Origin: Candidatus Dormiibacterota bacterium
GTDB taxonomy: Bacteria; Chloroflexota; Dormibacteria; Dormibacterales; Dormibacteraceae
Reading direction: 5' to 3'
Assembly (NCBI GenBank): GCA_003151935.1
Contig: PLYZ01000062.1
Coordinates: 11,460 to 51,782, forward strand
DNA: 40,323 bases
The position numbers were made by a program, and so were the translations under genes. This document shows, one piece after another, positions 20,175-40,323 of the stretch (the first letter of the stretch is position 1; each line of letters opens with the position of its first letter). Under the pieces are notes generated by a model. That model saw only the letters and a program-made list of their open reading frames with translations, did not search any database and was not told the DNA's origin.

Positions 20175-20191
20175 CTGCTGCAGATGCGTGA

Positions 20192-20210
20192 AAGGTCCGC
20201 AACCTTAAGG
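20192..20210. promoter_or_regulatory. Inverted repeat in the divergent promoter region
   Basis: AAGGT-CCGCA-ACCTT (20192-20206) overlaps the palindrome CCTTAAGG (20203-20210) in the 38-base gap between the amidohydrolase and thioesterase starts. It could be an operator for the two arms. It does not resemble the GntR palindrome at 20704. Confidence 0.3.
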
Positions 20211-20212
20211 TA

Positions 20213-20641: not shown

Positions 20642-20703
20642 CCCCCACGGACGCGAAGGCCCGCCGATCCTGGAAATCAACATCGCTTCTTGACCATCTC
20701 GGA

Positions 20704-20721
20704 TGCATGATGCATCATGCA
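20704..20721. promoter_or_regulatory. 18-bp perfect palindrome, probable GntR operator
   Basis: TGCATGATGCATCATGCA is perfectly self-complementary and overlaps the first ATG (20717) of the GntR gene. FadR/GntR regulators bind such short dyads, and the placement would block initiation of the whole downstream operon. That the encoded GntR binds it is inference. The next ATG, at 20726, lies just outside the palindrome. Confidence 0.7.
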
Positions 20722-22692: not shown

Positions 22693-22723
22693 GGAACTTC
22701 AAAACGACTGACGAGGAGCCGAG

Positions 22724-23596
22724 GTGCACCTTCTGATCTACGGATGCATCCTCGGCATCCTCTTGGGCGGCGTCTATGGCCTGATGGCGAGCGGGCTGGC
22801 GCTGGTGTGGGGGATCATGCGAGTCCTCAACATCGCGCAGGCGGTCTGCGTCATCCTCGGCTCGTACCTTGCATTCACTGCGTTCACCGTGCTCCACGTC
22901 GATCCGATGCTCGCGGTCCTCCCGATCAGTGTGGTGATGTTTGTCTTTGGCGTGGGCATCTACTACGCCTTCCTCCGTCCCATCCGGCGGGACCGCGAGT
23001 CGCTGTCCATCCTCGTCACGTATGCCATCGCCATTGGCATCGAGGGAGCGCTGGGGCTTATCTACACGACCAGCCTGCAGCACACGGGTACGAGCTACGC
23101 AACGCAATCGTTCGAGGTCGGTGGCTTTCAGATTCCGACCGTCGAGCTTTATGCGTTCCTGATCTCGGTCGCGATCCTGGGTCTCCTTGCCCTCATGCTG
23201 CAGCGCACACGCCTCGGCCGCGCTCTGCGTGCGGCCACCCAAAATCCGACCGCCGCCCGGCTTCTCGGCGTTGATATCGACCGGGTGTCAGCGGTGGGGT
23301 TTGGAATCGGCATCAGCACGGCCGCGGCGGCCGGTGCCGTCTACGGGATGATCTACTCGTTCAATCCCAATAGCCACTACGACCTAATCGGCATCCTCCT
23401 GGCGATCGTCGTGCTGGGCGGTTTCGGCAGCATGAGAGGGGCGATCGTGGCGGCGCTGATCTTGGGCGTTATTGCATCGGTGGTCTTCATCTACTGGCCG
23501 CTCTGGGCAAACCTGAGCTTTTTTGGGGTCGTCGTTGTGGTGCTGCTGTTCCGGCCGCAAGGACTGTGGGGCGTGCCGAACTGGGCGACACAATGA
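22724..23596 (+). CDS. Liv-type ABC transporter permease (LivH-like)
   Basis: 290 residues from GTG 22724, preceded by GAGGAG. It has about eight hydrophobic segments, starting LLIYGCILGILLGGVYGLMA. The LivH hallmark regions GLALVWGIMRVLNIAQ near the N-terminus, LLGVDIDRVSAVGFGI in the cytoplasmic loop that docks the ATPase, and VVLGGFGSMRGAIVAALILG are present. It forms the membrane channel with the LivM-like protein. Its stop overlaps the next start (ATGA at 23593). Confidence 0.9.
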   Translation: MHLLIYGCILGILLGGVYGLMASGLALVWGIMRVLNIAQAVCVILGSYLAFTAFTVLHVDPMLAVLPISVVMFVFGVGIYYAFLRPIRRDRESLSILVTYAIAIGIEGALGLIYTTSLQHTGTSYATQSFEVGGFQIPTVELYAFLISVAILGLLALMLQRTRLGRALRAATQNPTAARLLGVDIDRVSAVGFGIGISTAAAAGAVYGMIYSFNPNSHYDLIGILLAIVVLGGFGSMRGAIVAALILGVIASVVFIYWPLWANLSFFGVVVVVLLFRPQGLWGVPNWATQ

Positions 23597-24606
23597 GCCG
23601 AGCCACCAAGGCCGGGGCTATCAGGGCGATCCTCGTCTTCGCCCTGCTGCTCGCCCTGCCGTTCGTCTTCACAGATCACTGGATCGTGAACATCGCCTTC
23701 TTTGGATTGATGTTCGCTGTCCTTGCGGTCGCCTGGAATCTCATCGGCGGGTACGCAGGGTACATCTGGCTCGGCAGCATCGCCTTCTTTGGCCTCGGCG
23801 CCTACGCGCTGGCCATCACGTTCCAGCACGTGCCCCTCACCTCCGGCTATCTGCCCTTCTTTGCGCTCATCCCCATCGGCATCGCCATCGGGATCGTCAG
23901 CATTCCGCTCGCCCTTCTTCTCCTTCGAGTGCGCGCGGCCACCTTTGCCGTCGTATCGCTGGCGGTCCTGTTCGTCGCCGAAATCTTTGCGTTCAACCTG
24001 GACGGCCTGACGGGTGGGCCTCAGGGTCTCGGCATGGCGCTGCCGCCGTTCGTGGTGACTACGTTTGAACGGCCCTTCTATCTGGCCATGCTCGTCTTGC
24101 TTGCGGCCGTCATGTTCTGCTCCTGGTACCTGGCCAAGTCCAAGTTCGGCCTCATGCTCTTCGCCATCAAGGGCGACGAGGATCGAGCCCGCGGCCTTGG
24201 GGTCCGGACGACGACCGTGAAAGTCATCGCCTTCGCGCTCTGCTGTGGGTTCACCGGCATGGCAGGCGGGCTGTGGGCGTATTACATAACGTGGATCTAT
24301 CCGCAGTTTGCGATGGACCCCAACACGATGTTCGCGATCATCCTGATGACCTACCTTGGCGGAAAGGGAACGCTGTGGGGCCCGGTGCTGGGCGCGTTCC
24401 TGCTGGCCCCGGCCAAGGAGTACTTCGCCTACACGCTGGGCGGTAGCGCGTTCTATCTGATCGCGTACGCGGCCCTGTTCCTGCTGGTGATGTTCTTCTT
24501 GCCTCGAGGCGTCGTGCCGACGGTGGCTGACTTCCTGGCCCGGCATCGACGCAGGGCGGCGGTCCTCGCCAGCGGCCCGCGGCCCGCGGGGGAGCAGGTC
24601 GCATGA
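23593..24606 (+). CDS. Liv-type ABC transporter permease (LivM-like)
   Basis: 337 residues from ATG 23593, which overlaps the LivH-like stop. Multiple membrane segments are visible (ILVFALLLALPFVFTDHWIV, IAFFGLMFAVLAVAWNLIGG). The LivM signature GYIWLGSIAFFGLGAYA and the docking loop RARGLGVRTTTVKVIAF are present, with a conserved MTYLGGKGTLWGPVLGAF near the C-terminus. It overlaps the LivG-like gene by ATGA (24603-24606). Confidence 0.9.
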   Translation: MSRATKAGAIRAILVFALLLALPFVFTDHWIVNIAFFGLMFAVLAVAWNLIGGYAGYIWLGSIAFFGLGAYALAITFQHVPLTSGYLPFFALIPIGIAIGIVSIPLALLLLRVRAATFAVVSLAVLFVAEIFAFNLDGLTGGPQGLGMALPPFVVTTFERPFYLAMLVLLAAVMFCSWYLAKSKFGLMLFAIKGDEDRARGLGVRTTTVKVIAFALCCGFTGMAGGLWAYYITWIYPQFAMDPNTMFAIILMTYLGGKGTLWGPVLGAFLLAPAKEYFAYTLGGSAFYLIAYAALFLLVMFFLPRGVVPTVADFLARHRRRAAVLASGPRPAGEQVA

Positions 24607-25334
24607 CGGCGATGCTCGAGGTGCGTGGGGTCACGAAAAGCTTTGGTGGCGTAGTGGCAGTCGACCACTGCACGTTCTCTGTCGCAGCTGGCAGCCTCAC
24701 GGGCCTCATCGGCCCGAATGGTTCCGGCAAAACGACTCTGTTTAATGTGATCACCGGGTACCTGCCCTCAGACAGTGGCGAGATTCGGCTGGATGGTCGC
24801 CTCATCCGCAAGCCCGACCCCACCTGGCTGTATCGCCAGGGGGTCGCCCGAACGTTCCAGAACGCTCGCATCTTTCCCGAGCTCACGCTTAGGGAGAATC
24901 TCGCCCTGGCGATCCCGGCAGGGTGGCGGATGCTCCTCAACATCGCGATCAGCAGGGCCGATCGGGAACGGATCGACGAGGCGCTCGAAATCTTCGGCCT
25001 GAGCCCGCTCGCCGATCACCGAGCTGGCGAATTGTCGTACGGGCAGAGCCGCCTGCTGGAGTTCGCCACGACCCTGATGGGACGCCCGCGCCTGGTTCTG
25101 CTCGATGAACCAACGGCGGGCGTCAACCCGATCATGATCGAGATCCTGGAGAACCACATTCGCCGGCTCCACGAAACCGGAGTCACCGTCCTTCTCGTCG
25201 AGCATCGCCTAGAAATCTTGATGCGGCTCTGCGAGACGGTCATCGTCCTGGACCAAGGCGCCCTGATCGCCGAGGGTCCGCCCGAGCGGGTCAGGCGCGA
25301 CCCAAAGGTGCTCGACGCCTACTTGGGCGCCTGA
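24603..25334 (+). CDS. Liv-type ABC transporter ATPase (LivG-like)
   Basis: 243 residues. Walker A is GPNGSGKTT (about 38-46), the signature is LSYGQSRLLEFA, and Walker B is LVLLDEPTAGVNP with the switch His in LLVEHRLEIL. The signature has LSYGQ, as usual for LivG. It pairs with the LivF-like ATPase to drive import. Five bases separate its stop from the next gene, the first non-overlapping junction since the LivH-like gene. Confidence 0.9.
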   Translation: MTAMLEVRGVTKSFGGVVAVDHCTFSVAAGSLTGLIGPNGSGKTTLFNVITGYLPSDSGEIRLDGRLIRKPDPTWLYRQGVARTFQNARIFPELTLRENLALAIPAGWRMLLNIAISRADRERIDEALEIFGLSPLADHRAGELSYGQSRLLEFATTLMGRPRLVLLDEPTAGVNPIMIEILENHIRRLHETGVTVLLVEHRLEILMRLCETVIVLDQGALIAEGPPERVRRDPKVLDAYLGA

Positions 25335-25339
25335 CCCCG

Positions 25340-26089
25340 ATGTCCACTGTGCTGTCGATACGCGGGCTGATCGCCGGCTACGGCTGGGGCGACATCCTCC
25401 ACGGAGTGGATCTTGATGTCGAGGTGGGAAGCATCACCTGCATCATCGGGCCGAACGGGGCAGGCAAATCGACCCTCTTGAAAACGATAAGCGGCCTGCT
25501 CGCGGCCCGAAGCGGCGACATCATGTTTGAAGGGAGGTCGATCGTCGGGTGCACGCCGACCAGCGTCCTGTCGCTGGGCATCGGCCACGTACCCCAAGAT
25601 CGAAGCCTGTTCCCACTCATGTCGGTTTGGGACAACCTCCTGATGGGCGGATACATCCTCAAGGATCAGGCGCTTGTCCGTCGGCGGGCCGATGAGGTCG
25701 CCGAGATGTTCCCAATCGTCAAGGAACGCCGCCATGAGCGCGCTGGCGCCCTCTCCGGTGGGCAGCAGAAGGCGGTCGAAATCGCGCGCAGCCTGATGCT
25801 GCAGCCCAAGGTCGTGCTGATGGACGAGTTGTCGATGGGCCTCGATCCGAAGAGCCGTCACCTCGCCTTCGACACGGTGGTCCGTCTGAACAGAGCTGGG
25901 CGCACCGTGCTGATGGTGGAGCAAAACGCTCGGGCCGGACTCGCGATCGCGGATCATGGGGCCGTGATGGAGGCGGGGACCGTGAAGCTCGAAGGGAGCG
26001 GAAAGAGCCTGCTTGACGACCAGGAGGTGGCCCGTTTGTATCTCGGCAGAATCGATGGTTCAGCACTCAGCGAAGGGAGCACCGCATGA
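25340..26089 (+). CDS. Liv-type ABC transporter ATPase (LivF-like)
   Basis: 249 residues. It begins with the typical LivF opening IRGLIAGYGWGDILHGVDLD, then Walker A GPNGAGKST, the Q-loop region GIGHVPQDRSLFPLMSVWDN, the signature LSGGQQK and Walker B VLMDELSMGLDP. The Walker B Pro of the usual DEPS is Leu (DELSMGL), a common LivF variant. The stop overlaps the next start (ATGA at 26086), linking transport to catabolism. Confidence 0.9.
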   Translation: MSTVLSIRGLIAGYGWGDILHGVDLDVEVGSITCIIGPNGAGKSTLLKTISGLLAARSGDIMFEGRSIVGCTPTSVLSLGIGHVPQDRSLFPLMSVWDNLLMGGYILKDQALVRRRADEVAEMFPIVKERRHERAGALSGGQQKAVEIARSLMLQPKVVLMDELSMGLDPKSRHLAFDTVVRLNRAGRTVLMVEQNARAGLAIADHGAVMEAGTVKLEGSGKSLLDDQEVARLYLGRIDGSALSEGSTA

Positions 26090-27093
26090 AACTTGGGTGG
26101 GCACTCGATCACCACGTACCGGATTCGGTAGAGCGGCAACTGGTGGCGGCGGCAGACCGCGATCGCCTCGACTCCATATGGACGATGGAAAACCACCACC
26201 TGCGTGACGGTGTGACCACGGCTGCGGTGACGCTAGAGCGAACGCACAATGTGCGAGTCGTCATGGGCACGCTGAGCCCATTCTTTCGACATCCGGTCGA
26301 GATCGGCTTGACGCTCGCCAACCTCGTCCGCATGTATCCGGGGCGCTGCGGGCTGAACATTGGGCAGGGGATGCCGGAGACGCTGGAGCGGCTGGGGATC
26401 TCGGTCGCCCACCCGGTGCAGCGGCTCCGCGAGACCATCCAGATCATCCAGCTGCTCTTCAAAGGTGAGCGCTTTGCCTTTGAAGGCGAGCACTTCCACA
26501 TCGAGAAGCACCGCCTCTCAGGCGACCTGCTCGAACTCCCGCCCATCTTCATCGGGGCCATGGGACCGCGGCTCATCAGCCTGGCGGGGGAGATCGCGGA
26601 CGGCGTGAACCTGCCGCTCGCCTCGTCGCCCGAGTATATCGCCGAGTCCGTCAACCGCTTCCTCGAAGGCGCGCGGGCTGCCGGTCGCGACCGGAGCAGA
26701 CTGACCGTGGCCAGCGAAGTGCTGGTGCAGGTTGGAGACGATGGTGACGACCTCGCCGGAGTCCGTCGCCTGCTGGGCTTCCATTTCTCGAGCAAGTACT
26801 TCGAGAAGGTTGCCGCCCCCGCCGGCATCAAGCTGGACCACCCCGCGATCAAGGAGGCGTTCCTCAGCCGCTCGCCGGAGGAACTGCGGAAGGTCCTGCC
26901 GGACGAGGTCGTGCACACGTTCGCCGCTGTGGGAACGGCGCCCCAGATCCTTGCCCGCCTCCGGAAGTACTGGGATTGCGGTCTCGACCTGATCATTCTG
27001 TACACCGCGGGTACGGGCGAAGAGCGCCTGCGGACCATGCACGAGTTGGTCGGCGCCGCCAAGAAAGAGGGCGTGGGGGCGGCCGGCGCATGA
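26086..27093 (+). CDS. LLM-class flavin-dependent oxidoreductase
   Basis: 335 residues, the usual size of luciferase-like F420- or FMN-dependent enzymes. The TIM-barrel fold is recognisable from MKLGWALDHH, VVMGTLSPFFRHPVEIGLTL, GRCGLNIGQGMPETLERLGI, LFKGERFAFEGEHFHIEKHR and PPIFIGAMGPRLISLAGEIA. Members act as monooxygenases or F420-dependent reductases/dehydrogenases. The sequence alone does not say which cofactor, and no flavin reductase partner lies nearby. It would carry out the first oxidation or reduction of the imported compound. It overlaps LivF and the CoA ligase by 4 bases at each end. Confidence 0.85.
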   Translation: MKLGWALDHHVPDSVERQLVAAADRDRLDSIWTMENHHLRDGVTTAAVTLERTHNVRVVMGTLSPFFRHPVEIGLTLANLVRMYPGRCGLNIGQGMPETLERLGISVAHPVQRLRETIQIIQLLFKGERFAFEGEHFHIEKHRLSGDLLELPPIFIGAMGPRLISLAGEIADGVNLPLASSPEYIAESVNRFLEGARAAGRDRSRLTVASEVLVQVGDDGDDLAGVRRLLGFHFSSKYFEKVAAPAGIKLDHPAIKEAFLSRSPEELRKVLPDEVVHTFAAVGTAPQILARLRKYWDCGLDLIILYTAGTGEERLRTMHELVGAAKKEGVGAAGA

Positions 27094-28748
27094 ACAAGTA
27101 CTCCGCGATCTTCGAAGGTGCCGTCCCTAAGCACTCACCAGAGCTGGTAGCGGAGTACACGTCAGCGGGGTTCTGGGGAACCGCCACCATCGGCTCGGAG
27201 TTTCGGCAGGCGGCCGCCCTTAGGCCTGACCGGTTGGCGGTGGTGGACGGCAAGAGGAGATTCACGTATCGGGAGTTTGCCGAGGAGGTCACCGCGATGC
27301 GGGACGGCCTGAGAGCGCTCGGCGTCGACGACGGCGACCGAGTGACTGTGCAACTTCCTAACTGGTGGGAGCAGATGGCCCTCCTATTCGCCATTGTGGA
27401 GCTGGGAGCTGTACTCGTGCCCGTCACCATCCGGGCGCGTGGCGATCTCGAGTATGTGCTGCAGTACACGGACAGCAAGGTTGTCGTGATCCCGCAGGAG
27501 TTCCACGGCTTCTCGCACGTGGACTTGGTCGAGGGCATGCGTCCTCGGCTGCCGGCGCTCAGCCGCGTGGTCGTCGTCCGCGGCCGTGCGGCGAGCGGGC
27601 AAGTCACCTACGAGAGCGTTGCGAAGGAAGCGGCGGCCAGAGGGACCGGCGACGCGCCGCCCGTGGTGTCCCCGAACGATCCGTGGCAAATCATGTTCAC
27701 CTCGGGGACGACCTCTGCGCCGAAGGGCGTCATCCGCACCCACAACGGCACCCTGTACACCCTGCGGAACCTGTCCGGCTTCTATCGGCTGTACCAGGGC
27801 GATGGCACAGACGTGGCGCTCGGGGTCCTTCCCATCTCCTTCATCTTTGCCCAGTACCTGTGCGCGCTCGGCGCCATGTTGTCCGGCGGCGCCCTAGTCC
27901 TGCAGGAGTCGTTCAACGCCTCCGAGACCATCAACCTCATCGAACGGGAGCGGGTCACCTACGCGGGCGTCGTGCCCTCGATGGTGTCGGACTTCGAGCA
28001 GGTGCCGGGCATCGGCGAGCGCGACTTCTCCTCGCTTCGGCTGTTGTCGCCGGCGGGCGAGGCCGTAACCCGAGAGCGCAAAGAGCAGCTGCACGAGATC
28101 TTCAGATGCGATATTCGAGAGTCTTACGGCCTCGCCGAGATGACGTGGCCGCTAGGTCAGCGGGCAGACGCGCCGACAGAGAAGAAGTACGCCACCACTG
28201 GCCAGGCGAGCCCCGGGGCTGAACTGCGCATCGTGGACGACTCCATGGAGGACGCCCCCGTCGGCCAAGTCGGTGAGCTGTATTTGAGGGGTCCGACACT
28301 CTTTCCTGGGTACTACCGCAACCCGGAAGCGACCAAGGCCGCGATCGATGAGGAGGGCTGGTTTCACACCGGCGACCTCGCCATTCTCGACCGGGATGGC
28401 TTCTACGCGATCGCCGGTCGCAAGAAGGACCTGATAAAGCGCGGCGGGATGCCGATCGTCCCCCAGGAACTGGAAGACGCGCTTCAGCGCCACCCGGCGG
28501 TCGTCGGCGTAGCGGTGTTCGGCCTGCCCGACGAGCGGCGCGGCGAGATCGCGTGTGCTTGCGTGGTCCTGGATCCGGCGGTTCACACGACGCCAAGCGA
28601 TCTCCTCCATTTCCTCCGCGGTCAGCTCGCCACCTACAAGATGCCGGAGCGGATTGAGATCATGGAGTCGTTGCCCCTGTCCCCGAACGGCAAGGTGCTA
28701 AAGAGCGAGCTGCGGAAACGGCTCGAGGGTACGAAGACCTCAACATGA
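27090..28748 (+). CDS. Acyl-CoA ligase (AMP-binding enzyme)
   Basis: 552 residues from ATG 27090. The ANL-superfamily motifs are complete: the P-loop MFTSGTTSAPKG (around residue 200), YGLAEMTW (A5 motif), GWFHTGDLA with the ribose-binding Asp, IKRGGMPIVPQELE and the C-terminal catalytic Lys in LSPNGKVLK. It activates an organic acid to its CoA thioester with ATP. The layout is closest to benzoate/cyclohexanecarboxylate/2,3-dihydroxybenzoate ligases, but the substrate cannot be read. It overlaps the LLM gene and the thiolase gene by ATGA at both ends. Confidence 0.88.
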   Translation: MNKYSAIFEGAVPKHSPELVAEYTSAGFWGTATIGSEFRQAAALRPDRLAVVDGKRRFTYREFAEEVTAMRDGLRALGVDDGDRVTVQLPNWWEQMALLFAIVELGAVLVPVTIRARGDLEYVLQYTDSKVVVIPQEFHGFSHVDLVEGMRPRLPALSRVVVVRGRAASGQVTYESVAKEAAARGTGDAPPVVSPNDPWQIMFTSGTTSAPKGVIRTHNGTLYTLRNLSGFYRLYQGDGTDVALGVLPISFIFAQYLCALGAMLSGGALVLQESFNASETINLIERERVTYAGVVPSMVSDFEQVPGIGERDFSSLRLLSPAGEAVTRERKEQLHEIFRCDIRESYGLAEMTWPLGQRADAPTEKKYATTGQASPGAELRIVDDSMEDAPVGQVGELYLRGPTLFPGYYRNPEATKAAIDEEGWFHTGDLAILDRDGFYAIAGRKKDLIKRGGMPIVPQELEDALQRHPAVVGVAVFGLPDERRGEIACACVVLDPAVHTTPSDLLHFLRGQLATYKMPERIEIMESLPLSPNGKVLKSELRKRLEGTKTST

Positions 28749-29902
28749 CCGGGGATGCTTATGTGGCGGGAGTCGGGATGCATCCGTTTGGGAGGTGGCC
28801 CGACGCTTCGATGCGCACCATGGCATCGGAGGCTGTCCTCCAAGCGGTGGGAGACGCCCAGCTCACGGTTCGGGACATTCAGGTCGCCTACTTCGCCAAC
28901 TCGCTAGGAGGTTTGCTCACGGGGCAGGAGTCGATCAGGGGCCAGGTCAGCCTGCATGACGTCGGGATCCGCGATATCCCGATCATCAACGTCGAGAACG
29001 CCTGCGCGAGCGGCTCCACCGCGCTGTGGCTGGCCATCCGGGCGGTGCGTTCCGGAGAGTTTCGGGTTGCGCTTGCGGTGGGCGTGGAGAAGATGTTCGT
29101 CGGCGACACGCAGCGAACGCTCTCCGCACTCCAGACTGCAGCCGATACAGAGGCGACCGCCGGCCAGGGGTTGCAGTTCGTAGCCCTCTATGCAATGAGG
29201 CTTGAAGAGGCCATTCGAACAGGGGCGTTGACGACCGAGCACCTGGCAAAGGTCACGACCAAGAACAAGCGCAACGGCTCGCTCAACCCATACGCGCAGT
29301 TCCGCAAATTGATGACTGAAGGAGAGGTGCTGGCCGGTCGCCCGATCGCAGGCCCGCTCACGCTCCCGATGGTGTCGGCAATCTCCGACGGAGCGGCGGC
29401 GGTAATCGTGACGGCATCTCCCGGTTCGAACGGCGCCGTACGCGTGCGCGCCTCGGTGCTGTCCTCGGGGGCGGTCGACGGCTTGGGCGAGCTAGTCGTC
29501 CGCCGTGCAATAGCTCTCGCATACGAAGAGGCGGGAATCGGCCCCGAAGAACTGAACGTGGCCGAGGTACACGATGCGGTCAGCCCTGCGGAGTTCTTCC
29601 GGTACGAGGAAATGGGCCTGTGCCCGGCCGGCGGGGCGGGGGAACTTTTCGATTCGGGAGCGACCGGCCTGTCGGGCCGCATTCCGGTGAACCCAAGCGG
29701 CGGCCTAAGCGCGCGCGGCCACCCCGTGGCTGCGACCGGCCTGGCCCAGATTTCCGAGCTCGCATGGCAACTGCGGGGCCAGGCCGGCGCGCGGCAGGTC
29801 ACAGGCGCCCGCATTGCCTTCGCCCAGAACTCTGGCGGATGGCTGGATGGAGACGCCGCGGCCTGCGCGGTGCACATCCTCGAAGCCACGAACGCGGCTT
29901 GA
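28745..29902 (+). CDS. Thiolase-family protein (SCP-x/lipid-transfer type)
   Basis: 385 residues. The nucleophilic Cys is in VENACASGSTALW (about residue 84). The second half has NVAEVHDAVSPAEFF with the catalytic-type His and GGLSARGHPVAATG, corresponding to the GGxxxxGHPxGAxG loop. This is the SCP2/thiolase subgroup that works with a DUF35 partner, as the next gene encodes. In characterised systems such pairs act as thiolases or as retro-aldolases in steroid side-chain breakdown. Here the Cys is kept, which favours a true thiolytic cleavage. The overlaps ATGA (28745) and TTGA (29899) couple it to its neighbours. Confidence 0.85.
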   Translation: MTGDAYVAGVGMHPFGRWPDASMRTMASEAVLQAVGDAQLTVRDIQVAYFANSLGGLLTGQESIRGQVSLHDVGIRDIPIINVENACASGSTALWLAIRAVRSGEFRVALAVGVEKMFVGDTQRTLSALQTAADTEATAGQGLQFVALYAMRLEEAIRTGALTTEHLAKVTTKNKRNGSLNPYAQFRKLMTEGEVLAGRPIAGPLTLPMVSAISDGAAAVIVTASPGSNGAVRVRASVLSSGAVDGLGELVVRRAIALAYEEAGIGPEELNVAEVHDAVSPAEFFRYEEMGLCPAGGAGELFDSGATGLSGRIPVNPSGGLSARGHPVAATGLAQISELAWQLRGQAGARQVTGARIAFAQNSGGWLDGDAAACAVHILEATNAA

Positions 29903-30264
29903 AACGCACACTCGTTGTCGAAGGCGAACTGCGCTTGACTGGCGGACGGTGCGCCGCCTGCGGCCACATGACCATCCCCATCCGAAGGGTCTGTCCCGCC
30001 TGCGGAAACCAGCCGGTCGCGGAGACGACCTACGGCCCACGGGGCACGGTCGAGAGCTGGGTGGACCTGCAGGTGTCGACGGACGCTTACCAGGCTCCAT
30101 ACCAGGTCGGCTTCGTCACCTTGAGTGAGGGGCCCCGCCTTTTCACCCGTCTCGAGAGCGTTCGCTCGCGCGACCAGGCGGTGCGCCTGGCCGGTGAGCC
30201 GGATCGAGACACCTATTGGTTCGTGGCAGATCCGACGACAACACCTATCGGAGGTCAGGGATGA
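29899..30264 (+). CDS. DUF35 Zn-ribbon/OB-fold partner of thiolase
   Basis: 121 residues starting with TTG at 29899, which overlaps the thiolase stop as TTGA. The rubredoxin-like zinc knuckle is visible as RCAACGHMTIPIRRVCPACG. After it comes an OB-fold (GTVESWVDLQVSTDAYQAPY, then VGFVTLSEGPRLFTRL). Proteins of this family bind the SCP-x-like thiolase and channel the acyl-CoA. No ATG start is available at the right place, so TTG is likely. It overlaps the acyl-CoA dehydrogenase start by ATGA (30261). Confidence 0.85.
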   Translation: MKRTLVVEGELRLTGGRCAACGHMTIPIRRVCPACGNQPVAETTYGPRGTVESWVDLQVSTDAYQAPYQVGFVTLSEGPRLFTRLESVRSRDQAVRLAGEPDRDTYWFVADPTTTPIGGQG

Positions 30265-31445
30265 ACGTGAAATCGCCGACAACAGAGCGTGGAGCCGACA
30301 TTTATGGCTTCACGGACCAGGAGCGAGCCCTTCGGGAGCGCGCGCGAGAGACCGCCGACAGCCTGAACGAACTGGCGCGCAAGTCGGACGCGACGCCCGG
30401 CTACGACGCTGCCTGGCACGAAGCGGTTGATCGGCTGCACAAGGATGGGTATTTCGCGATGACGGTCCCTCCTGAGTACGGGGGGACACCGGCCAACCTG
30501 CTCTCGCTCGTCATCGTGCAGGAGTCCCTGTCCCGCGTCGACGGTGGGCTTGCGAACTCGATCTCTCACGAAGCTTGCGCCGCCCGCGCGCTGGCCAGCG
30601 CCTCGGAGGAAATCCGCCGGCGCGTCTTTGCCCAGATGCTCGCCGGATCGCTTACCTGCATCGCCATCACGGAGCCTGACGCTGGCTCTGACCTTGGCGC
30701 GATGGCCACCACCGCCACCAAGAACGGCGCGGGCTACGTGATCAACGGGAACAAGTCCATCTCCTCCCTCGCCGGAGTCGCCGACATTTTCCTGATCTGG
30801 GCCAAGACAGATCCGGCCGCCGGCACGCGCGGTATCTCGACTTTTTTCGCTCCCCGGGGCACGCCTGGGATCACGGTCGGAGAGGCGCGCGACACCCTGG
30901 GTTTCCGGCAGCTTCCTCACCACGATGTGTCGTTCGTGGACGTTCAGGTTCCGGAAGGCGCGCGCATCGGCGACGAGGGCCAGGGTCTTGCGATCTTTGC
31001 CGAAGCTCTCAACGTAGGACGTCTGGGAGGCGGGGCCCAAGCGCTTGGCCTAGCGGTGGGCGCCTACGAGCGGGCCCTCGACTTCGCCAAGAAACGCCAA
31101 GCGTTTGGACAGCCGATCAGCAAGCACCAGGCGATCCAGTTCAAGCTCGCGGACATGTTCATGGCCATCGAGGCGGGTCGCGCGCTGATCTACTCGGTGG
31201 CTCGGTTCATGGATGCGAGCGAACTTGGCTCGCGCGAGGTCGGCACGTACGCGGCCGCCGTGAAGGCGTACGAATCAGACATGGCGGTGCGAGTGACGGA
31301 GGAAGCGGTCGAGATCTTCGGGGCGCAGGGTATCTGGAAGAGTAACGACGTCGAAAGGCTTTTCCGCGACGCTAAAGTCACCCAGCTGGTCGATGGCCCG
31401 AACGAGCTGATGCGGATGCGCATCGCCCACGCGCTGATCCGTTGA
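30261..31445 (+). CDS. Acyl-CoA dehydrogenase
   Basis: 394 residues with the three-part ACAD fold: the N-terminal helical domain (FTDQERALRERARETADSLN), the middle beta domain (CIAITEPDAGSDLGAMAT, then VINGNKSISSLAGVADIFLI) and the C-terminal helical domain (FGQPISKHQAIQFKLADMFM, EIFGAQGIWKSNDVERLFRD). FAD-linked alpha,beta-dehydrogenation of an acyl-CoA is expected. The catalytic Glu seen in YEGT of MCAD aligns with Asp in LVDGPNELMRM, so the base may be an Asp or lie elsewhere, as in the isovaleryl-CoA group. It overlaps neighbours at both ends (ATGA 30261, TTGA 31442). Confidence 0.87.
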   Translation: MNVKSPTTERGADIYGFTDQERALRERARETADSLNELARKSDATPGYDAAWHEAVDRLHKDGYFAMTVPPEYGGTPANLLSLVIVQESLSRVDGGLANSISHEACAARALASASEEIRRRVFAQMLAGSLTCIAITEPDAGSDLGAMATTATKNGAGYVINGNKSISSLAGVADIFLIWAKTDPAAGTRGISTFFAPRGTPGITVGEARDTLGFRQLPHHDVSFVDVQVPEGARIGDEGQGLAIFAEALNVGRLGGGAQALGLAVGAYERALDFAKKRQAFGQPISKHQAIQFKLADMFMAIEAGRALIYSVARFMDASELGSREVGTYAAAVKAYESDMAVRVTEEAVEIFGAQGIWKSNDVERLFRDAKVTQLVDGPNELMRMRIAHALIR

Positions 31446-32230
31446 CCAAGCGGGCTGAGCTGATCTCGGTCCAGATTCTGGGACGGATCGCCGTCGTTAC
31501 ACTCAACCGACCCCACGTCCTCAATGCTATCTCGATGGATATGGCCGAGCAACTCGCAAATGGCTTATCGGCTATCGGTGAGAACCGGGCGGTGTGGGTG
31601 GTCGTAGTGGCGGCGGCTGGCGAGCGCGCGTTTTGCGTCGGCGCCGATCTGAAGGAGGCGGCTTCGCTGTCCGACGCAGCACAGCTCGAGCGCCGGCGCC
31701 TGATCCGGGAACTTTTCAAGACGCTCAGGTCAATCCCGCAGCCGACTATTGCCTCGGTATTCGGTTACGCGCTTGGAGGTGGTTGCGAACTGGCACTCAG
31801 CTCGGATCTCGTCGTTGCATCCGAGGACGCCGTCTTTGGCCTCACGGAGACGCGTGTCGGGCTCGTTCCGGGCGGTGGAGGGATGCTGCTGATGCCGCGC
31901 GCCATTGGTGTAACGCGGACGAAGGAACTGCTCTTCACGGGCAAGCACGTCGAGGCTAGGAAGGCCGCCGAGCTCGGCTTCGTGAATAGCGTGGTGGAGC
32001 GTCAAAACCTCCAGCCAGCGACCATGGAGCTTGCTGGCGCGATCTTGCGCAGTTCGCCATCCGCCGTTGCGGAGGTGAAACGAACCATCGACCAGTCGGT
32101 TGGGCTACCGCTCGAGAGAGGCCTCGAGCTTGAGGAAGCGGCCGCACTACGAGTGCTTCGCTCACGAGATCGGGCAGAGGGTATAGCCGCCTTCAACGAC
32201 AAGCGAGAGCCCGAGTGGGAAAACCGGTGA
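31442..32230 (+). CDS. Enoyl-CoA hydratase/isomerase (crotonase family)
   Basis: 262 residues from TTG 31442. The crotonase fold is clear: VVTLNRPHVLNAISMDM, CVGADLKEAASL (oxyanion-hole region) and FGYALGGGCELALSSDLVVA with the first catalytic Glu. ETRVGLVPGGGGMLLMPRAI carries the position of the second Glu. Hydration of the 2-enoyl-CoA made by the adjacent dehydrogenase is the simplest role. It is the last of the run of 4-base-overlapping genes; 13 bases separate it from the SDR. Confidence 0.88.
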   Translation: MTKRAELISVQILGRIAVVTLNRPHVLNAISMDMAEQLANGLSAIGENRAVWVVVVAAAGERAFCVGADLKEAASLSDAAQLERRRLIRELFKTLRSIPQPTIASVFGYALGGGCELALSSDLVVASEDAVFGLTETRVGLVPGGGGMLLMPRAIGVTRTKELLFTGKHVEARKAAELGFVNSVVERQNLQPATMELAGAILRSSPSAVAEVKRTIDQSVGLPLERGLELEEAAALRVLRSRDRAEGIAAFNDKREPEWENR

Positions 32231-32243
32231 GCGGCTGAGATAG

Positions 32244-33167
32244 ATGGGAACACTGGACGGCAAGGTGGCCGTCATCACGGGTGCCGGACGGGGGATAGGA
32301 CGCGAAGAAGCCCTCCTGTTCGCGCGAGAGGGGGCCCGCGTCGTAGTCAACGATCTTGGCGTCGCGATGGATGGGGCTGGCTCAGATGCCGGGGTCGCGG
32401 CCCAGCTGGTGGAGGAGATCCGTGGACAGGGTGCGGGCGCAATAGCCCATACCGAAGACGTGTCTGAGCCCGAGGGCGCCGGTTCCCTTATCAAGCTGGC
32501 GCTGGACACGTGGGGGCGGCTCGACGTCGTCGTCAACAATGCGGGTGTCCTCCGCGACCGCATGATCTTCAACATGTCGATCGAGGAGTGGGACACCGTA
32601 ATCAAGGTCCACCTTCGCGGCCACTTCCTGATCACCCGGGAAGCCTGCAGGCACTGGAAGGCACAAGCAGCAGCCGGGGAGCCAGCCGCAGGGCGGATCA
32701 TCAACACCAGCTCGACCTCCGGACTGCTGGGTAGCGCCGGCCAGGCGAACTACGGCGCGGCAAAAGCGGGGATCGCCGCCTTCACCCAGATCGTGGCGAT
32801 CGAGATGCGCCGCTATGGCGTGACCGTCAATGCGATTGCGCCGGGAGCGCGCACGCGGCTGACCGAGAAGGCCTACGGCCAGGCGACAAGCCAGCCGGCC
32901 ACATTTGATCACCTGGCGCCGGAGCATGTGGCGGTTCTGGTTGCGTACCTTGCCGGCGACAAAGCGAGTCACATCACGGGCCAAGTATTTCGGATCCGAG
33001 GTGGCTTGGTCCAGCTTTACGAGGGCTGGAAGCCGATCGCCGCGCAGCAAAAAGGCGGTCCGTGGACGGTGTCGGAGATGGCCGCGGTGGTGGACCAGCT
33101 GTTCATCGGTCGCCCCACCATCTACGACCCGCCGAGCGTTATCGAGGAAGGGCTCTTCAAAGACTGA
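32244..33167 (+). CDS. SDR dehydrogenase, peroxisomal MFE-2 (HSD17B4)-like
   Basis: 307 residues. Nucleotide motif VITGAGRGIG, then VVVNDLGVAMDGAGSDAG, DVVVNNAGVLRD, catalytic Ser in NTSSTSGLLG and Tyr-x3-Lys in NYGAAKAG. The long C-terminal tail (IAAQQKGGPWTVSEMAAVVD and beyond) is typical of (3R)-hydroxyacyl-CoA dehydrogenases of the multifunctional-enzyme type 2 group. It would oxidise the hydroxyacyl-CoA from the hydratase. Together with the ligase, dehydrogenase, hydratase and thiolase it completes a beta-oxidation-like cycle. Confidence 0.87.
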   Translation: MGTLDGKVAVITGAGRGIGREEALLFAREGARVVVNDLGVAMDGAGSDAGVAAQLVEEIRGQGAGAIAHTEDVSEPEGAGSLIKLALDTWGRLDVVVNNAGVLRDRMIFNMSIEEWDTVIKVHLRGHFLITREACRHWKAQAAAGEPAAGRIINTSSTSGLLGSAGQANYGAAKAGIAAFTQIVAIEMRRYGVTVNAIAPGARTRLTEKAYGQATSQPATFDHLAPEHVAVLVAYLAGDKASHITGQVFRIRGGLVQLYEGWKPIAAQQKGGPWTVSEMAAVVDQLFIGRPTIYDPPSVIEEGLFKD

Positions 33168-33214
33168 AGGGAACACGATGACGCTGCGTGGTCTTGTTCT
33201 GGGGGTCTGACGAG

Positions 33215-34327
33215 ATGACCAGGGCAATGCGTCCGGCCGCCTTTCCGTGGTTTGACTACTCACGTTACAAGTTCTCTCTGGGGGTCGACCTTGGCTCTGT
33301 TGCCTTTCTCTCGGGGCAGGCCGCATCTGAATACGACCCGCGCGAGAAGCGAATCGTGGTTAGAGGTCGGCTCGCCGATCAGACACGCACTGCTTTCGCA
33401 AAGATTGGCGCCATCTTGGAAGCCGGTGGCTACGAACCCAGCGATATCGTCCTATTAGTCGAGTATCTGACTCCGCGAGGTCTCGATGGGCACCATAAGG
33501 TCGAGCAGATCCGTCGAGAATTCTTGGGTCATGGTGTCGCCGTTCGCACGGTCTGTGTCAACAGGCTCGTGCGCGCGAATGCATTGATCGAGATCGAGGT
33601 CGTCGCCTCGCGAAGTGGCGCAGCCAACAACAACCCTGATGGCCTCGTTTACCTCCCCTCGTGCCTTCCGTTGGATGAAAAGGATCGACTGGTCGGCGAG
33701 GGGGACGTCGTGGCCCAAATCAACGCAGTATTCGATCGCGCAGGCAGGCTCCTGGCCGGTGCCGGCCTCCCGCTGTCTCAGATAGCCAAGACGGTCGAAT
33801 ACATCACCCCCGCTGCGCTAGCTGCCTACCAGCTGGCGGTGCCGGCAAGCCGCGAACGCCTCGGGCCGGTTTTCCCTAGCGCGACGGCCATCGTGATGCC
33901 CCGTTTGGCACACCCGGGGGCCATGATCCAACTCGACCTCGTGGCCAGCCGCAATCCTTTGGAAGCCGTGAACGTAGCTCGGGAGAGCGACCACAGCCCG
34001 GCGGTGAAGGCCGGCAACGCCATCTTCATGTCGGGTAGGGCGCTCGATCCCGCAACTGGGCTGGCGATGCACAGGGGCGATGTGGGGGCCCAGGCTGAGC
34101 ACGTATACACCGACATCATTGACACGTTGAAGGCTGCAGGGGGAGAGGTCGATGACCTCGTGAAGCTGGTCGAATACATAACTCCGGAGGGGTTCGACCA
34201 CTATCGAGAAACGGGCGCGGTCCGATCCAGGCTTTTGGCACAGCCTTATCCCGCCTCAACGGGCGTGATTTGCGAGCGCCTCCTCTCAGAATCCTGCATT
34301 GAGATCGAGGCTGTCGCCGTCCTGTGA
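33215..34327 (+). CDS. Triple-domain RidA/YjgF protein
   Basis: About 370 residues from ATG 33215. Three RidA-like repeats follow one another: roughly residues 12-120 (VAFLSGQAASE ... ALIEIEVVAS), 125-235 (AQINAVFDRAG ... MIQLDLVAS) and 245-370 (AIFMSGRALDP ... CIEIEAVAVL). Single RidA proteins hydrolyse imines and enamines or deaminate 2-aminomuconate using a conserved Arg. At the aligned position I read Val, Ala and Ser in the three repeats, so canonical deaminase activity is doubtful. It closes the rightward arm. A 10-codon frame (MTLRGLVLGV, 33178-33210) with its own stop lies just before it and may be a leader. Confidence 0.8.
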   Translation: MTRAMRPAAFPWFDYSRYKFSLGVDLGSVAFLSGQAASEYDPREKRIVVRGRLADQTRTAFAKIGAILEAGGYEPSDIVLLVEYLTPRGLDGHHKVEQIRREFLGHGVAVRTVCVNRLVRANALIEIEVVASRSGAANNNPDGLVYLPSCLPLDEKDRLVGEGDVVAQINAVFDRAGRLLAGAGLPLSQIAKTVEYITPAALAAYQLAVPASRERLGPVFPSATAIVMPRLAHPGAMIQLDLVASRNPLEAVNVARESDHSPAVKAGNAIFMSGRALDPATGLAMHRGDVGAQAEHVYTDIIDTLKAAGGEVDDLVKLVEYITPEGFDHYRETGAVRSRLLAQPYPASTGVICERLLSESCIEIEAVAVL

Positions 34328-34753: not shown

Positions 34754-35911
34754 ATGCTTGGACACGACCCTGTTCGTTTCACGCGTGACCTGAGCGCCAA
34801 ACTCGCCAGTCGCTCGCGCCACGTATGCGCCTTCCTGGGCGCAGGCACATCGCACGCCTGTGGCCTACCTGATGTCGGGCAACTTCAGACGCTGGTGTTG
34901 GAACGCTTGTCGGATCCCCGAAAGAAGCTATTCGCTGAACAGCTTCAGGGCCGAAACCTGGAAGGGGCTCTCAGTCGGATTCGCAGCATCGCCTCCATCC
35001 TCGGACCGAACCAGGAGCTTCAAAGCTTGACCCGCGAGACTGCCCACGAGCTTGACCGAGCAGTCTGCAGTGCCATCGCCACTGAGCTCCGGAGCGACAG
35101 AGCGGACCTGAAGCCGATGGTGCGCTTCGCCGCCTGGGTTGCTAGGTCCCAATACCACTGGCCGTTGGAGATTTTCTCCGTCAACTACGACTTACTCCTT
35201 GAACAGGCGCTCGAGAAGCTACACGCGCCATACTTCGACGGGTTCGTAGGTACGCTAAAAGCCTCCTTCAGTGCGGAGATGGTCGAAGCGGTGCCGGGTG
35301 AACCACTCTGGCTGCCCTCAAGGCTTGCCCGTGTATGGAAACTACATGGATCGGTCAACTGGGCATGGGAAAACCACGACGTGGTCCGACTGGGAACGCA
35401 CATTGACGATGGCCCAGCGGCGATCTACCCGGCTGAGACTAAGTACGAAGAGTCTCGTCGAGTTCCCTTCCTGGTGTTGCAGGATCGGTTCCGCCGAGCC
35501 CTTCAGCAGCCGGAGACTCTCTTCCTGGTCAGCGGTTACTCGTACTCGGATCAGCATCTGAACGAGTCGTTCTTTGACGCGGCGACCCGTTATCAACGGT
35601 CCGAGATTGTCGCTTTCTGCTACGAGGACGAGATTCCGGCGACGCTTGCTGAGCGGGCGCTGGCCACTCCGAACCTCCAGGCAGCTGCTGGTAAGGAGGC
35701 GATCCTGGGAGGCCTCCGGCAGAAATGGATCAGTCCGGAGGAGGCGCCTCCGGATGTCTGGCATGAGGACCGTTTTGGTCTCGCCGACTTCGGCCATCTT
35801 GCGGCATATCTTGGTCGCACGTCTGTCGCGGATCTTCCAATTGACGATCGCCTCCGTAGCCTGATTGAAGGCGAACCCAAGAACCCCACTCCCGAAGTCT
35901 CTGATGCCTGA
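34754..35911 (+). CDS. SIR2-family NADase-type defence protein
   Basis: 385 residues. The SIR2 fold is visible from AFLGAGTSHACGLPD (NAD-binding, residues 26-40), FSVNYDLLLEQ (about 139-149; the Asn-Tyr-Asp motif), WKLHGSVNW with the catalytic-type His (about 195) and SGYSYSDQHLNESFF (about 259-273). Paired with a HerA ATPase, such SIR2 proteins act as NAD+-degrading (and in some cases DNA-cleaving) effectors that abort phage infection. The HerA start lies inside its last codons (ATGCCTGA, 35904-35911). This coupling, together with the island-border position just after the tRNA-Asn fragment, fits a mobile defence module. Confidence 0.87.
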   Translation: MLGHDPVRFTRDLSAKLASRSRHVCAFLGAGTSHACGLPDVGQLQTLVLERLSDPRKKLFAEQLQGRNLEGALSRIRSIASILGPNQELQSLTRETAHELDRAVCSAIATELRSDRADLKPMVRFAAWVARSQYHWPLEIFSVNYDLLLEQALEKLHAPYFDGFVGTLKASFSAEMVEAVPGEPLWLPSRLARVWKLHGSVNWAWENHDVVRLGTHIDDGPAAIYPAETKYEESRRVPFLVLQDRFRRALQQPETLFLVSGYSYSDQHLNESFFDAATRYQRSEIVAFCYEDEIPATLAERALATPNLQAAAGKEAILGGLRQKWISPEEAPPDVWHEDRFGLADFGHLAAYLGRTSVADLPIDDRLRSLIEGEPKNPTPEVSDA

Positions 35912-37664
35912 ACCGGAGCCCACGTGTATCGGACGTGTGCGGCACGTTCTCGGTTCAACTGTGACCGTGGCTCTCGACCCCGATTTGGCTGGCGTCGCCC
36001 CCCTGTACCGAGGGCGACTACAGCCTGTTGGCCAAATTGGCTCCCTCGTACGAATCCCTCAAGGTTTGGTGGATCTCGTAGCGGTTGTCACCCTGGTTGG
36101 TATCGCCGAACTGGCTGGCAACTTAAGTCCAGCCGATGTTGCCCAGCGTGGTGAGCGCTGGCTTCGAGTCGAGCTGCTGGGGGAGATCGATCGCGCGACC
36201 CACCTGTTCCATCGAGGCGTGGGGACGTACCCAGGCCTCGATGATCCGGTGCACTTCGCGACGCCCGAGCAACTGGGCGCCGTTTTTCCAATGCCCGACA
36301 GTGAACACTTACGCTTGGGCCGCCTCGCTGCAGCCGAGGACATCCCAGTGTCGCTGCACGCAAACCGACTTGTCGTGCGCCATGCAGCCGTGGTCGGATC
36401 GACGGGTTCGGGCAAGACGAGCGCTGTCGCGGCGATGCTGCAGAGCTTCGTGCGGGGCGGTTGGAGTCGCGCACACATTCTAGTCATCGATCCTCACGGG
36501 GAATACTCACGGGCGATGGAGAAGTACGCGTCCGTTCGCAGTGTGCTTGGCGCCGGGGCCAAGCAACTTCGTGTTCCGTATTGGGCACTACCTGCCCGGG
36601 AAATTCTGAGGATATTCACCGCGTCGATACCGGGCGCCACTGCGGCAAATCGGTTCAGTGAACTTGTGGGAGAGGGTCGCCGCAAATTCGTTGAGGCGGC
36701 CGAGTGGATATCGTTGGACCCTTCTGCCGTCACGCCGGACACGCCTGTCCCGTTCGACATCAGACCAATCTGGCGGCAGATGGATCGTGAGAACCGTGAG
36801 ACTCGAACGACCGTCGGCGATCCCGCAACTGCACGCGTGATTGATGAGGGGGACGAAGCGACGCTCCGGCCGACACAATTCGAGCCTTATGGACCCGCTG
36901 GCCACCCGCCTCAAAAGGGTCCCCTCTACAGTGCGCACGGCACCATCCCCGATCTCCTCAGACTGGGATTGCTCGACCCGAGAATGCGCTTCTTTCAGGA
37001 ACCGGTGGGAGATGTTGCGGGTCCAGATCCGCTAGTACAAGTCATGGTTGAGTGGCTAGGTAGCGGCCGGCCGGTCTCAGTCCTAGATTTCAGCGGGGTC
37101 CCAGGAGAAGCCGCCGATGTTGCCATTGGCGTCGTGCTGAATTTGGTATTCGAGGTCGCGTTGCGGACACAGAGCGGCGACAAGGGAATCGGCAGGCCAA
37201 GCCCGGTGATGGTAGTGCTAGAAGAGGCTCATCGTTACTTGGGCGGAGAGGCAACAGCGCTGACAAGGGAATCGGCTAACCGAATCGCACGAGAGGGCCG
37301 GAAGTATGGGGTGGGGTTACTCATGGTGTCCCAGAGACCAACAGAGTTACCGAAAACCGCGCTAGCGCAATGTGGAACTATCGTGGCTCTGAGGCTCTCC
37401 AACGCTGAAGATCAGGGAGCCATACGGGCGGCCTTGCCCGATTCGGTGGCAGGTCTGGCCGCAATACTGCCCTCCCTGCGAACAGGTGAGGCAATTGTTA
37501 GTGGGGAGGCCGTTGTTATCCCGAGTCGCTTGCTAATTGATCAACCTGATCCAAAACCCCTGGCAGAGGATCCTTCGCTGGCCTCTTGGCGCAGCTCGGA
37601 CTATGAGATGGATCTGGCGCCCGCCATCAAGGCTTGGCGCGGAACGTACCAGGGGGAAACATGA
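35904..37664 (+). CDS. HerA-like DUF87 hexameric ATPase
   Basis: 586 residues from ATG 35904, overlapping the SIR2 stop by 8 bases. An N-terminal HAS-barrel (CIGRVRHVLGSTVTVALDPD ... GRLQPVGQIGSLVRIP) is followed by Walker A VGSTGSGKTSA (about 164-174), VIDPHGEYS (about 194-202), Walker B VVLEEAHRYLGGE (about 437-449) and sensor-like MVSQRPTELPK (about 475). This is the complete HerA/FtsK motor. With SIR2 it forms the known SIR2-HerA (Nezha) antiphage assembly, in which the ATPase scaffold activates the NADase. Its stop overlaps the next start (ATGA at 37661). Confidence 0.9.
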   Translation: MPEPEPTCIGRVRHVLGSTVTVALDPDLAGVAPLYRGRLQPVGQIGSLVRIPQGLVDLVAVVTLVGIAELAGNLSPADVAQRGERWLRVELLGEIDRATHLFHRGVGTYPGLDDPVHFATPEQLGAVFPMPDSEHLRLGRLAAAEDIPVSLHANRLVVRHAAVVGSTGSGKTSAVAAMLQSFVRGGWSRAHILVIDPHGEYSRAMEKYASVRSVLGAGAKQLRVPYWALPAREILRIFTASIPGATAANRFSELVGEGRRKFVEAAEWISLDPSAVTPDTPVPFDIRPIWRQMDRENRETRTTVGDPATARVIDEGDEATLRPTQFEPYGPAGHPPQKGPLYSAHGTIPDLLRLGLLDPRMRFFQEPVGDVAGPDPLVQVMVEWLGSGRPVSVLDFSGVPGEAADVAIGVVLNLVFEVALRTQSGDKGIGRPSPVMVVLEEAHRYLGGEATALTRESANRIAREGRKYGVGLLMVSQRPTELPKTALAQCGTIVALRLSNAEDQGAIRAALPDSVAGLAAILPSLRTGEAIVSGEAVVIPSRLLIDQPDPKPLAEDPSLASWRSSDYEMDLAPAIKAWRGTYQGET

Positions 37665-38833: not shown

Positions 38834-38965
38834 ATCTATCACGTGTCCTGGCGTGATCCATACCGGTCGTGGCGGCTCCGACAGCGGCGACCTGGGTTTG
38901 GTGACTGCGCAGCGCGGCTTCCGAGTCTTGCGTGAGCCGGTACTGCCTGCTATGAGTTGCGGTTG

Positions 38966-39769
38966 ATGTCCCCTTCAGGATCCAGAAAATCTCTTCTCGA
39001 GCAGTACGCGGAGCCTTTCGCGGACCTCCCGCCCCTTGCTGGCATCCTCGCAGCCATCCTGCTGGTGGTCATCGGCTGGGCGGCGCCCTTATTCGCTGGA
39101 GCCTCAGTCATCGCAGGGATATGGCTGCAGTTCGGCAGATGGCTCGTGTGGTTTCTGGCGGTTTTCGTTCTCGCCTACACGATGGTGGGCGTCTGGCGAC
39201 GGGACATCGACCGCCGGACTTTCGATGCCACTGACGACCCCGCTGGCCTGACCTGGAGCCAGTTCGAGAGGCTCATCGCCGAGTTCTACCGGCGTAAGGG
39301 AGCGACGGTAACGCCTCGTGGTGGTCCAACATCGGACGGCGGCGTTGACCTGAACCTAACGGATGCAACGGGTGACCGACTGATTGTCCAGTGCAAGCAT
39401 TGGAAGAGCCGCCATGTGGGGGTGAAACCGCTTCGGGAGCTCTGGGGCGTGTTGTCTGATGAGAAGGCTGACGGCGCAGTCTTCATCACCAGCGGATCGT
39501 TCACAAACGACGCGATTGCGTTTGCGCGCGGGAAACGGTTGGAGCTTATCGACGGAGCCAGGTTGCGCAGCATGATCGCCGCCGTGAAGGGAACCCGGGA
39601 AGCTGCGTCGGTTGCTGAGCCCCCGCCAGCCGCTAGTGTCCCTCGATGCCCGCGCTGCGGTTCCTCAATGGTGCTTCGGACCGCGAAGCGCGGTAATCAT
39701 TCAGGCGAGCAGTTCTGGGGCTGCTCCACGTATCCGGCATGCGGAGCCACGCTGTCCGCGTCTGCCTGA
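38966..39769 (+). CDS. Membrane-anchored Mrr-like restriction endonuclease with C-terminal zinc ribbon
   Basis: 267 residues from ATG 38966. Two hydrophobic segments (about 23-45 and 47-75: LAGILAAILLVVIGWAAPLF, then WLVWFLAVFVLAYTMVGVW) precede an Mrr_cat domain. That domain has SQFERLIAEFYRRKGATVTP, SDGGVDLNL (metal Asp) and IVQCKHW (Gln-x-Lys). The C-terminus is a topoisomerase-type C4 zinc ribbon (CPRCGSSM ... FWGCSTYPACGATL). Such proteins are type IV-like nucleases held at the membrane, possibly to attack incoming DNA. It is the last gene before the tRNA-Ser attachment site. Confidence 0.87.
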   Translation: MSPSGSRKSLLEQYAEPFADLPPLAGILAAILLVVIGWAAPLFAGASVIAGIWLQFGRWLVWFLAVFVLAYTMVGVWRRDIDRRTFDATDDPAGLTWSQFERLIAEFYRRKGATVTPRGGPTSDGGVDLNLTDATGDRLIVQCKHWKSRHVGVKPLRELWGVLSDEKADGAVFITSGSFTNDAIAFARGKRLELIDGARLRSMIAAVKGTREAASVAEPPPAASVPRCPRCGSSMVLRTAKRGNHSGEQFWGCSTYPACGATLSASA

Positions 39770-39879: not shown

Positions 39880-39972
39880 TAGCGGTCTTTCGACCGCTAA
39901 CCAAATGGCCCTGTTGGCCGGTTCTGAATTCAAAACCTGAGGGTCGTTCGAGCGTCGGGCTCGAAAACCGTT
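39880..39972. other. Hairpin-rich segment ending in inverted repeat at the tRNA-Ser anticodon (putative att core)
   Basis: Three dyads follow one another: TAGCGGTC-TTTC-GACCGCTA (39880-39899), GGCC-CTGTT-GGCC (39907-39919) and TTCGAGC-GTCGG-GCTCGAA (39947-39965). The last one includes the tRNA-Ser anticodon loop CTCGAAA (39960-39966). Short inverted arms around a 5-8 base spacer at an anticodon loop are typical of tyrosine-integrase core sites. The first dyad resembles a 6-8 bp/4-nt D arm but no tRNA can be folded around it. Confidence 0.5.
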
Positions 39973-40018
39973 ATGGGTCACTGGCCCATCGAGAGTTCAA
40001 ATCTCTCCCTCTCCGCCA
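39960..40018 (+). tRNA. tRNA-Ser(CGA) 3' half, 5' half displaced
   Basis: The anticodon loop CTCGAAA (39960-39966, anticodon CGA) is followed by the 3' anticodon stem ACCGT. Then come a long variable arm ATGGG-TCACTGG-CCCAT (39973-39989), a perfect T arm GAGAG-TTCAAAT-CTCTC (39991-40007), acceptor strand CCTCTCC, discriminator G and encoded CCA. The long variable arm identifies a Ser-type tRNA. Upstream there is no matching acceptor GGAGAGG and no complementary anticodon stem, so the 5' half is missing here. It is followed by the tRNA's own terminator. The simplest reading is the chromosomal 3' end of a tRNA-Ser split by an integrated element lying to the left. Confidence 0.6.
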
Positions 40019-40056
40019 ACACTTTTTGGAGAGGCACTCGAGCGGTAGCCTGTATT

Positions 40057-40091
40057 CGAAACCTGGTCTTTGGGACCGGGTTTTGTGTTTT
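40057..40091 (+). terminator. Rho-independent terminator of the tRNA-Ser locus
   Basis: CGAAACCTGGTC-TTTGG-GACCGGGTTTTG forms a 12-bp stem with two or three wobble pairs and a 5-base loop, followed by TGTTTTC. Hairpins of exactly this type (AAACC..GGTC/GACC..GGTTT) commonly follow tRNA genes. Confidence 0.75.
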
Positions 40092-40323
40092 CAGGACCCG
40101 CGATGCCGGGCTCCAAGGAGGCTGCAAGGCTGTGGAAAAGAGGGTGGAAAAACCGTCAAAACCGTTGGGTTTTTCGAAAACCGTTGTCACACGTTATCTG
40201 GCCCCGGAGGCTGCCCCGGCGCGCCGTTCAAAGCCTGTGGGATGCAAATATCCCGTGACGGGTCAACCAGCCTCTTGAGCCAGTCGTCGGTTACCATCCC
40301 GGGCGCCCTTGGTCCTTGCTTGC
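40092..40323. other. Right-end flank without a clear gene
   Basis: No convincing gene. The 12-mer TCGAAAACCGTT of the tRNA-Ser anticodon region recurs at 40174-40185, and AAAACCGT-type boxes also occur at 40149 and 40158. A leftward frame enters from the right edge and stops at 40187 (ending NGAPGQPPGPDNV); it may be the C-terminus of an outside gene but is not recognised. Confidence 0.35.

Follow-up and report, generated by a model that had tools for sequence, protein, structure and literature searches.

At the right end of the stretch of DNA analysed here (40,323 nucleotides, referred to throughout as the window; C38:11460–51782), the 3′ part of a tRNA-Ser gene stands alone, which raises the question of what displaced it and what it adjoins on either side. 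The sample is a draft genome, from an uncultured soil bacterium of the Dormibacterota, of 2.94 Mb in 97 contigs, with an estimated contamination of 3.85%. The piece (positions 39960–40018, + strand) comprises the anticodon loop, the variable arm, the T arm and the acceptor 3′ strand with CCA of tRNA-Ser(CGA). ARAGORN called no tRNA in the window, which indicates that the 5′ half is missing there, as the original prediction from the sequence had read it. That prediction also proposed a search for a complete tRNA-Ser(CGA) with the same 3′ part. Such a gene occurs in the same genome (C18:2923–3015, called by ARAGORN), and its portion at C18:2957–3015 is identical to the displaced piece at 59 of 59 nucleotides, reading CTCGAAAACCG...CTCTCCGCCA. 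A relaxed search of the genome returned these two copies of the 59-nucleotide 3′ part and no third; the next match, of 14 nucleotides, is a chance one. The left flanks of the two copies agree only in part (GCGTCGGG versus GCGACGGT), so that full identity stops at the anticodon loop.

A tyrosine integrase gene begins 125 bp 3′ of the intact tRNA-Ser(CGA) and leaves the end of its contig, C18. The terminal 25 bases of C18 are the initial 25 of C38, the contig of the window, and this 25-mer is found nowhere else in the genome; from the overlap we infer that the two contigs are adjacent. Joined in frame, they yield an intact integrase open reading frame (ORF) of 342 amino acids (Pfam PF00589, 2.1e-27). 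Together, the join and the intact frame would delimit an element, here element A, that extends from C18:2957 to C38:51418 and measures 52,286 bp in the joined sequence (~52.3 kb), its right-hand 40 kb occupying positions 1–39959 of the window. After joining, the intact tRNA-Ser(CGA) and the displaced piece lie on the same strand (+). Element A thus has the make-up of a tRNA-integrated genomic island: an intact tRNA at one end, a fragment of it in the same orientation at the other, and a tyrosine integrase inside the element and beside the tRNA. The expectation that a TraG-bearing element runs leftward from the piece agrees with the contig join and the element ends, and the tRNA-Ser(CGA) and tyrosine integrase that were placed left of position 1 are located there by the contig overlap.

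The right end of element A has features that recur elsewhere. The inverted repeat TTCGAGC/GCTCGAA, remarked on earlier, is present at 39947–39953/39959–39965 and reaches from the element end into the anticodon loop; its core, TCGAGC...GCTCGA, is also found at the end of a sister element in another genome of the same genus (G002). Upstream lies a right-end motif of the element family, GGCCGGTTCTGAATTCAAAA (39916–39935, +), a putative arm site. It stands a few tens of base pairs 5′ of displaced tRNA-Ser(CGA) pieces in G002, G024 and G075, and likewise 5′ of tRNA-SeC pieces in G005 and G025.

The sister element in G002 occupies tRNA-Ser, lies on one contig and spans 28,477 bp (28.5 kb), with an integrase 93% identical to that of element A and a displaced tRNA-Ser piece. 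The two elements share their first 1.2 kb, the Replic_Relax/TraG module (91–93% nucleotide identity) and the right end; outside these blocks they differ, and their cargo is different. In G002 the variable arm of the restored tRNA-Ser differs from that of the displaced piece, as expected if the island supplied a replacement 3′ part of the tRNA. The site holds a different, 28.5-kb island in G002, and other relatives have an intact tRNA-Ser(CGA) without such an integrase. A conserved gene lies ~6 kb to the right; G002 and G008 likewise have it close to the site, but in G002 its orientation is reversed. Two further loci show variations on this arrangement. In one (G024:C1:13632–29779, L041), tRNA-Ser(CGA) has a displaced 3′ piece 16 kb downstream, and element left-end sequence 2.9 kb from the tRNA suggests a nested insertion. 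In the other (G043:C38:7814–8889; L067, L070), a Ser(TGA)-type integrase in two frames lies directly 3′ of a tRNA 3′ part; the intact tRNA was not found there, and the locus is apparently another tandem or decayed copy.

To the right of the displaced piece, the next 190 bp (40022–40210, +) match, at 88% identity, the left end of an element (L050) that sits in tRNA-Tyr in another genome of the same genus; the match takes in a terminator and the first part of an integrase gene. This segment is the left end of a second, presumably older tandem element, element B. The intrinsic terminator at 40062–40084 (+), previously taken to be native to the tRNA, belongs to that left end by hairpin comparison: a strong hairpin and T run follow the CCA by 60–99 nucleotides in 9/9 element left ends examined, and a comparable hairpin occurs in 0/9 relatives that have tRNA-Ser(CGA) without such an integrase, which argues that the terminator was brought by the element. 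What is left of the element B integrase gene is its 5′ part (40132–40278, +), which reads VEKRVEKPSKPLGFSKTVVTRYLAPE, similar to VEERLEKPSKPLGVSKTVVTRYMAPE in L050; the homology stops near 40210. Neither the right end of element B nor the remainder of its integrase was found; beyond the window there is an assembly gap (NN) and then an rve-type transposase. By these sequence comparisons, element A and the remnant of element B stand in tandem and meet at the displaced piece. The earlier view that it marks the right end of an integrated element stands, and what lies beyond is a remnant of a related element, not plain chromosome.

We therefore consider it very probable that the 52.3-kb element A sits in tRNA-Ser(CGA), with the piece as its right attachment site, in tandem with the remnant of the older element B. 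Weighing against this are the contig join, which depends on the overlap, the missing remainder of element B, the reversed orientation of the conserved gene in G002, the assembly gap beyond the window and the draft state of the genome with its estimated contamination. The tyrosine integrase of element A would recombine in the anticodon loop of tRNA-Ser(CGA), with the attP of the element giving the tRNA gene a replacement 3′ part and the prior 3′ part being displaced to the far end of element A (39960–40018). The displaced part would itself have come earlier from element B, the left end of which (3′ part, terminator and integrase start) still follows. A 3′ part previously supplied by a related element would account for the identity between the displaced and restored copies. 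On this model B inserted before A, element A is presumably mobile, and the predicted attP is the right-end sequence GTCGGG joined to CTCGAAAACC..CCACACTTTC. From the break point we infer integrase-mediated strand exchange inside the 7-nucleotide anticodon loop, consistent with the anticodon subsite described for Islander (PMC4383910).

Other accounts of the locus fare less well. If there were a single element, native chromosome would begin to the right of the piece and the terminator would be that of the native tRNA. The terminator does lie where a tRNA terminator is expected, and genes of housekeeping type, which we take from reading the sequence to be UbiB-like and CorA-like, lie ~1.5–5 kb to the right. 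However, the first 190 bp to the right correspond to an element left end in which an integrase gene begins, and the terminator goes with such left ends (9/9) and is lacking in relatives without such an integrase (0/9); we regard a single element as improbable. Far less credible still is a permuted tRNA, with the 5′ half after the 3′ half. The sequence GGAGAGG at 40027 could pair with CCTCTCC, and GGAGAGG...CGAGCGG is similar to the 5′ part of tRNA-Ser, but this stretch has its homologue in the left end of the tRNA-Tyr element, which has GGCGAGG there, an intact tRNA-Ser(CGA) exists, and ARAGORN calls no tRNA here. This reading of GGAGAGG was dropped, the stretch being an element left end. We give equally little credence to an intact tRNA disrupted by an error in sequencing or assembly, or to a chance tRNA-like sequence: the genome is a draft with gaps, yet the sequence upstream of the piece is a conserved end of the element family that lies 5′ of displaced tRNA pieces in several other genomes.

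The portion of element A in the window encodes transfer, defence and catabolic functions. A TraG/TrwB-like coupling ATPase of the transfer module (362–2980, −; Pfam PF10412 and PF12696), with ~90% amino acid identity in the G002 sister element, is followed by a RadC/JAB protein (3516–4175, −; PF04002). The cargo includes a DNA methyltransferase with an Mrr-like domain (6103–7815, +; PF01555, PF04471 and PADLOC MTase models) and a long catabolic region (15483–34327), in which Pfam recognizes a branched-chain ABC transporter, acyl-CoA ligase, acyl-CoA dehydrogenase, thiolase, hydratase, luciferase-like monooxygenase, amidohydrolase and GntR regulator. A SIR2–HerA defence pair follows (34754–37664, +; PADLOC, SIR2 1.4e-98 and HerA 2.6e-129), and the last gene of the element encodes an Mrr-type endonuclease with a Zn ribbon (38957–39769, +; PF04471, PF01396). 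Also in the window are HNH proteins, a pair comprising an SMC-like ATPase and a phosphoesterase, and an RNase T/BRCT exonuclease. Left of the window, element A carries IetA/IetS (PADLOC 4e-71 and 2e-34; L003 651–4175) and a HamB-like helicase. One element is thereby predicted to hold two anti-phage defence systems, SIR2–HerA and IetAS, and the family brings these and restriction genes together with a catabolic gene cluster.

Because Pfam matched no VirB4-type ATPase among those element A ORFs that were scanned, which were a part of the total, element A is probably a mobilizable element, with transfer via the TraG-like ATPase and the Replic_Relax protein. The latter was scanned in its G002 form, as the gene in the genome of the window is interrupted by an assembly gap. 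In these respects element A resembles integrative and mobilizable elements, with an integrase, a TraG-like ATPase, Replic_Relax and no recognized mating-pore ATPase among the ORFs scanned.

Relatives of the integrase adjoin five tRNA genes: Ser(CGA), Ser(TGA), Tyr, SeC and Leu(CAA). All five are class II tRNAs, and AAAACC is common to their anticodon 3′ arms. The integrase family is narrow in a phylum-wide search, and no close relative was found in the viral contigs and plasmids searched; more distant integrases of the class adjoin Gly, Pro, Phe, Arg, Lys and Thr tRNAs. The integrase tree did not resolve the order of target switches. Five class II targets in one family provide a natural set of target-switched integrases, and an integrative element family is hereby defined to the base in Dormibacterota, a little-studied soil phylum.

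Every integrase ORF in the family opens with two direct copies of AAACC[G/A], 19 bp apart. Throughout the 81 kb of both complete elements, the pair is confined to the integrase starts, and in the whole window it occurs once, at 40159, where direct copies of the tRNA anticodon 3′ arm (AAAACCGTT) lie in the integrase ORF start (40148–40186, +). By eye, no comparable repeats were seen in the starts of the more distant integrases named above. The repeats read ACCGTT for Ser-CGA and SeC, ACCGAT for Leu and ACCACT for Ser-TGA. In these four of the five classes, the three letters after ACC are those of the integrase's own tRNA arm in at least one copy. The Tyr class has no match on the anticodon 3′ side; by reading of the sequence, the other strand of the Tyr 5′ arm, ACCGTT, does match. 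The summed own-target match was reached by 2/120 target permutations, and those two are nearly equivalent, as Ser-CGA and SeC have a common motif. The Ser-TGA integrases retain the peptide KPL but encode it with CCA CTG in place of CCG TTG, tracking the tRNA. As a control, AAA lysine codons number 2/81 in integrase bodies versus 9/28 among early codons of the elements' other genes, a bias that weakens the codon argument for the repeats. Given this bias and the few independent lineages, the agreement is suggestive, not proof, that the integrase repeats follow the tRNA target.

We tentatively propose a joint reading, which we hold to be plausible but slightly short of probable. The first integrase codons would double as integrase binding sites, reproducing the anticodon 3′ arm (the core half-site) of the tRNA in use and differing from one target to the next. 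Integrase specificity, target and a site for autoregulation or the intasome would then evolve in concert, and the element-borne terminator would insulate int from tRNA transcription. Possible roles of the repeats are negative autoregulation or assembly of the recombination complex. Should they prove to be binding sites, they would reveal how the retargeting of an integrase to a new tRNA comes about. We found no description of target-tracking repeats within an integrase ORF in the open-access literature.

Islands of this kind in tRNA genes are common, and the family is distinctive for the tRNA-target copies inside the start of its own integrase gene. Islander catalogues genomic islands in tRNA genes, including the anticodon subsite, and records tandem arrays (PMC4383910). 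Like those islands, element A has a regenerated tRNA and a tyrosine integrase at one end and a displaced 3′ fragment at the other; unlike them, it has a Dormibacterota host, and the second member of its array is only a remnant. In KplE1, attL overlaps the promoter of the integrase gene intS, which is negatively autoregulated by sites at attL (PMC2951348). There, too, int lies directly downstream of the tRNA, is read in the same direction and has putative integrase sites close to its start, whereas the Dormibacterota repeats are inside the int ORF, resemble core half-sites and mostly follow the tRNA target. Integration of ICEKp1 in Klebsiella displaces the tRNA terminator, and tRNA transcription enters int (PMC13023037). 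The integrase gene is again downstream of the tRNA gene in the same direction of transcription, but the Dormibacterota family does the opposite and brings a terminator between tRNA and int.

tRNA-SeC, one of the five targets, is probably also occupied in the genome of the window. A second integrase of the family (~58% identical) lies beside tRNA-SeC (G000:C85:42849–44100; L051, L113) and probably belongs to a second island of related kind. Three more tRNA-SeC 3′ parts (G000:C79:97280–97358, 102825–102896 and C55:3396–3470; L115, L118 and L120) have different upstream sequences, rich in GGACG repeats, and are possibly the ends of a different element type in tRNA-SeC.
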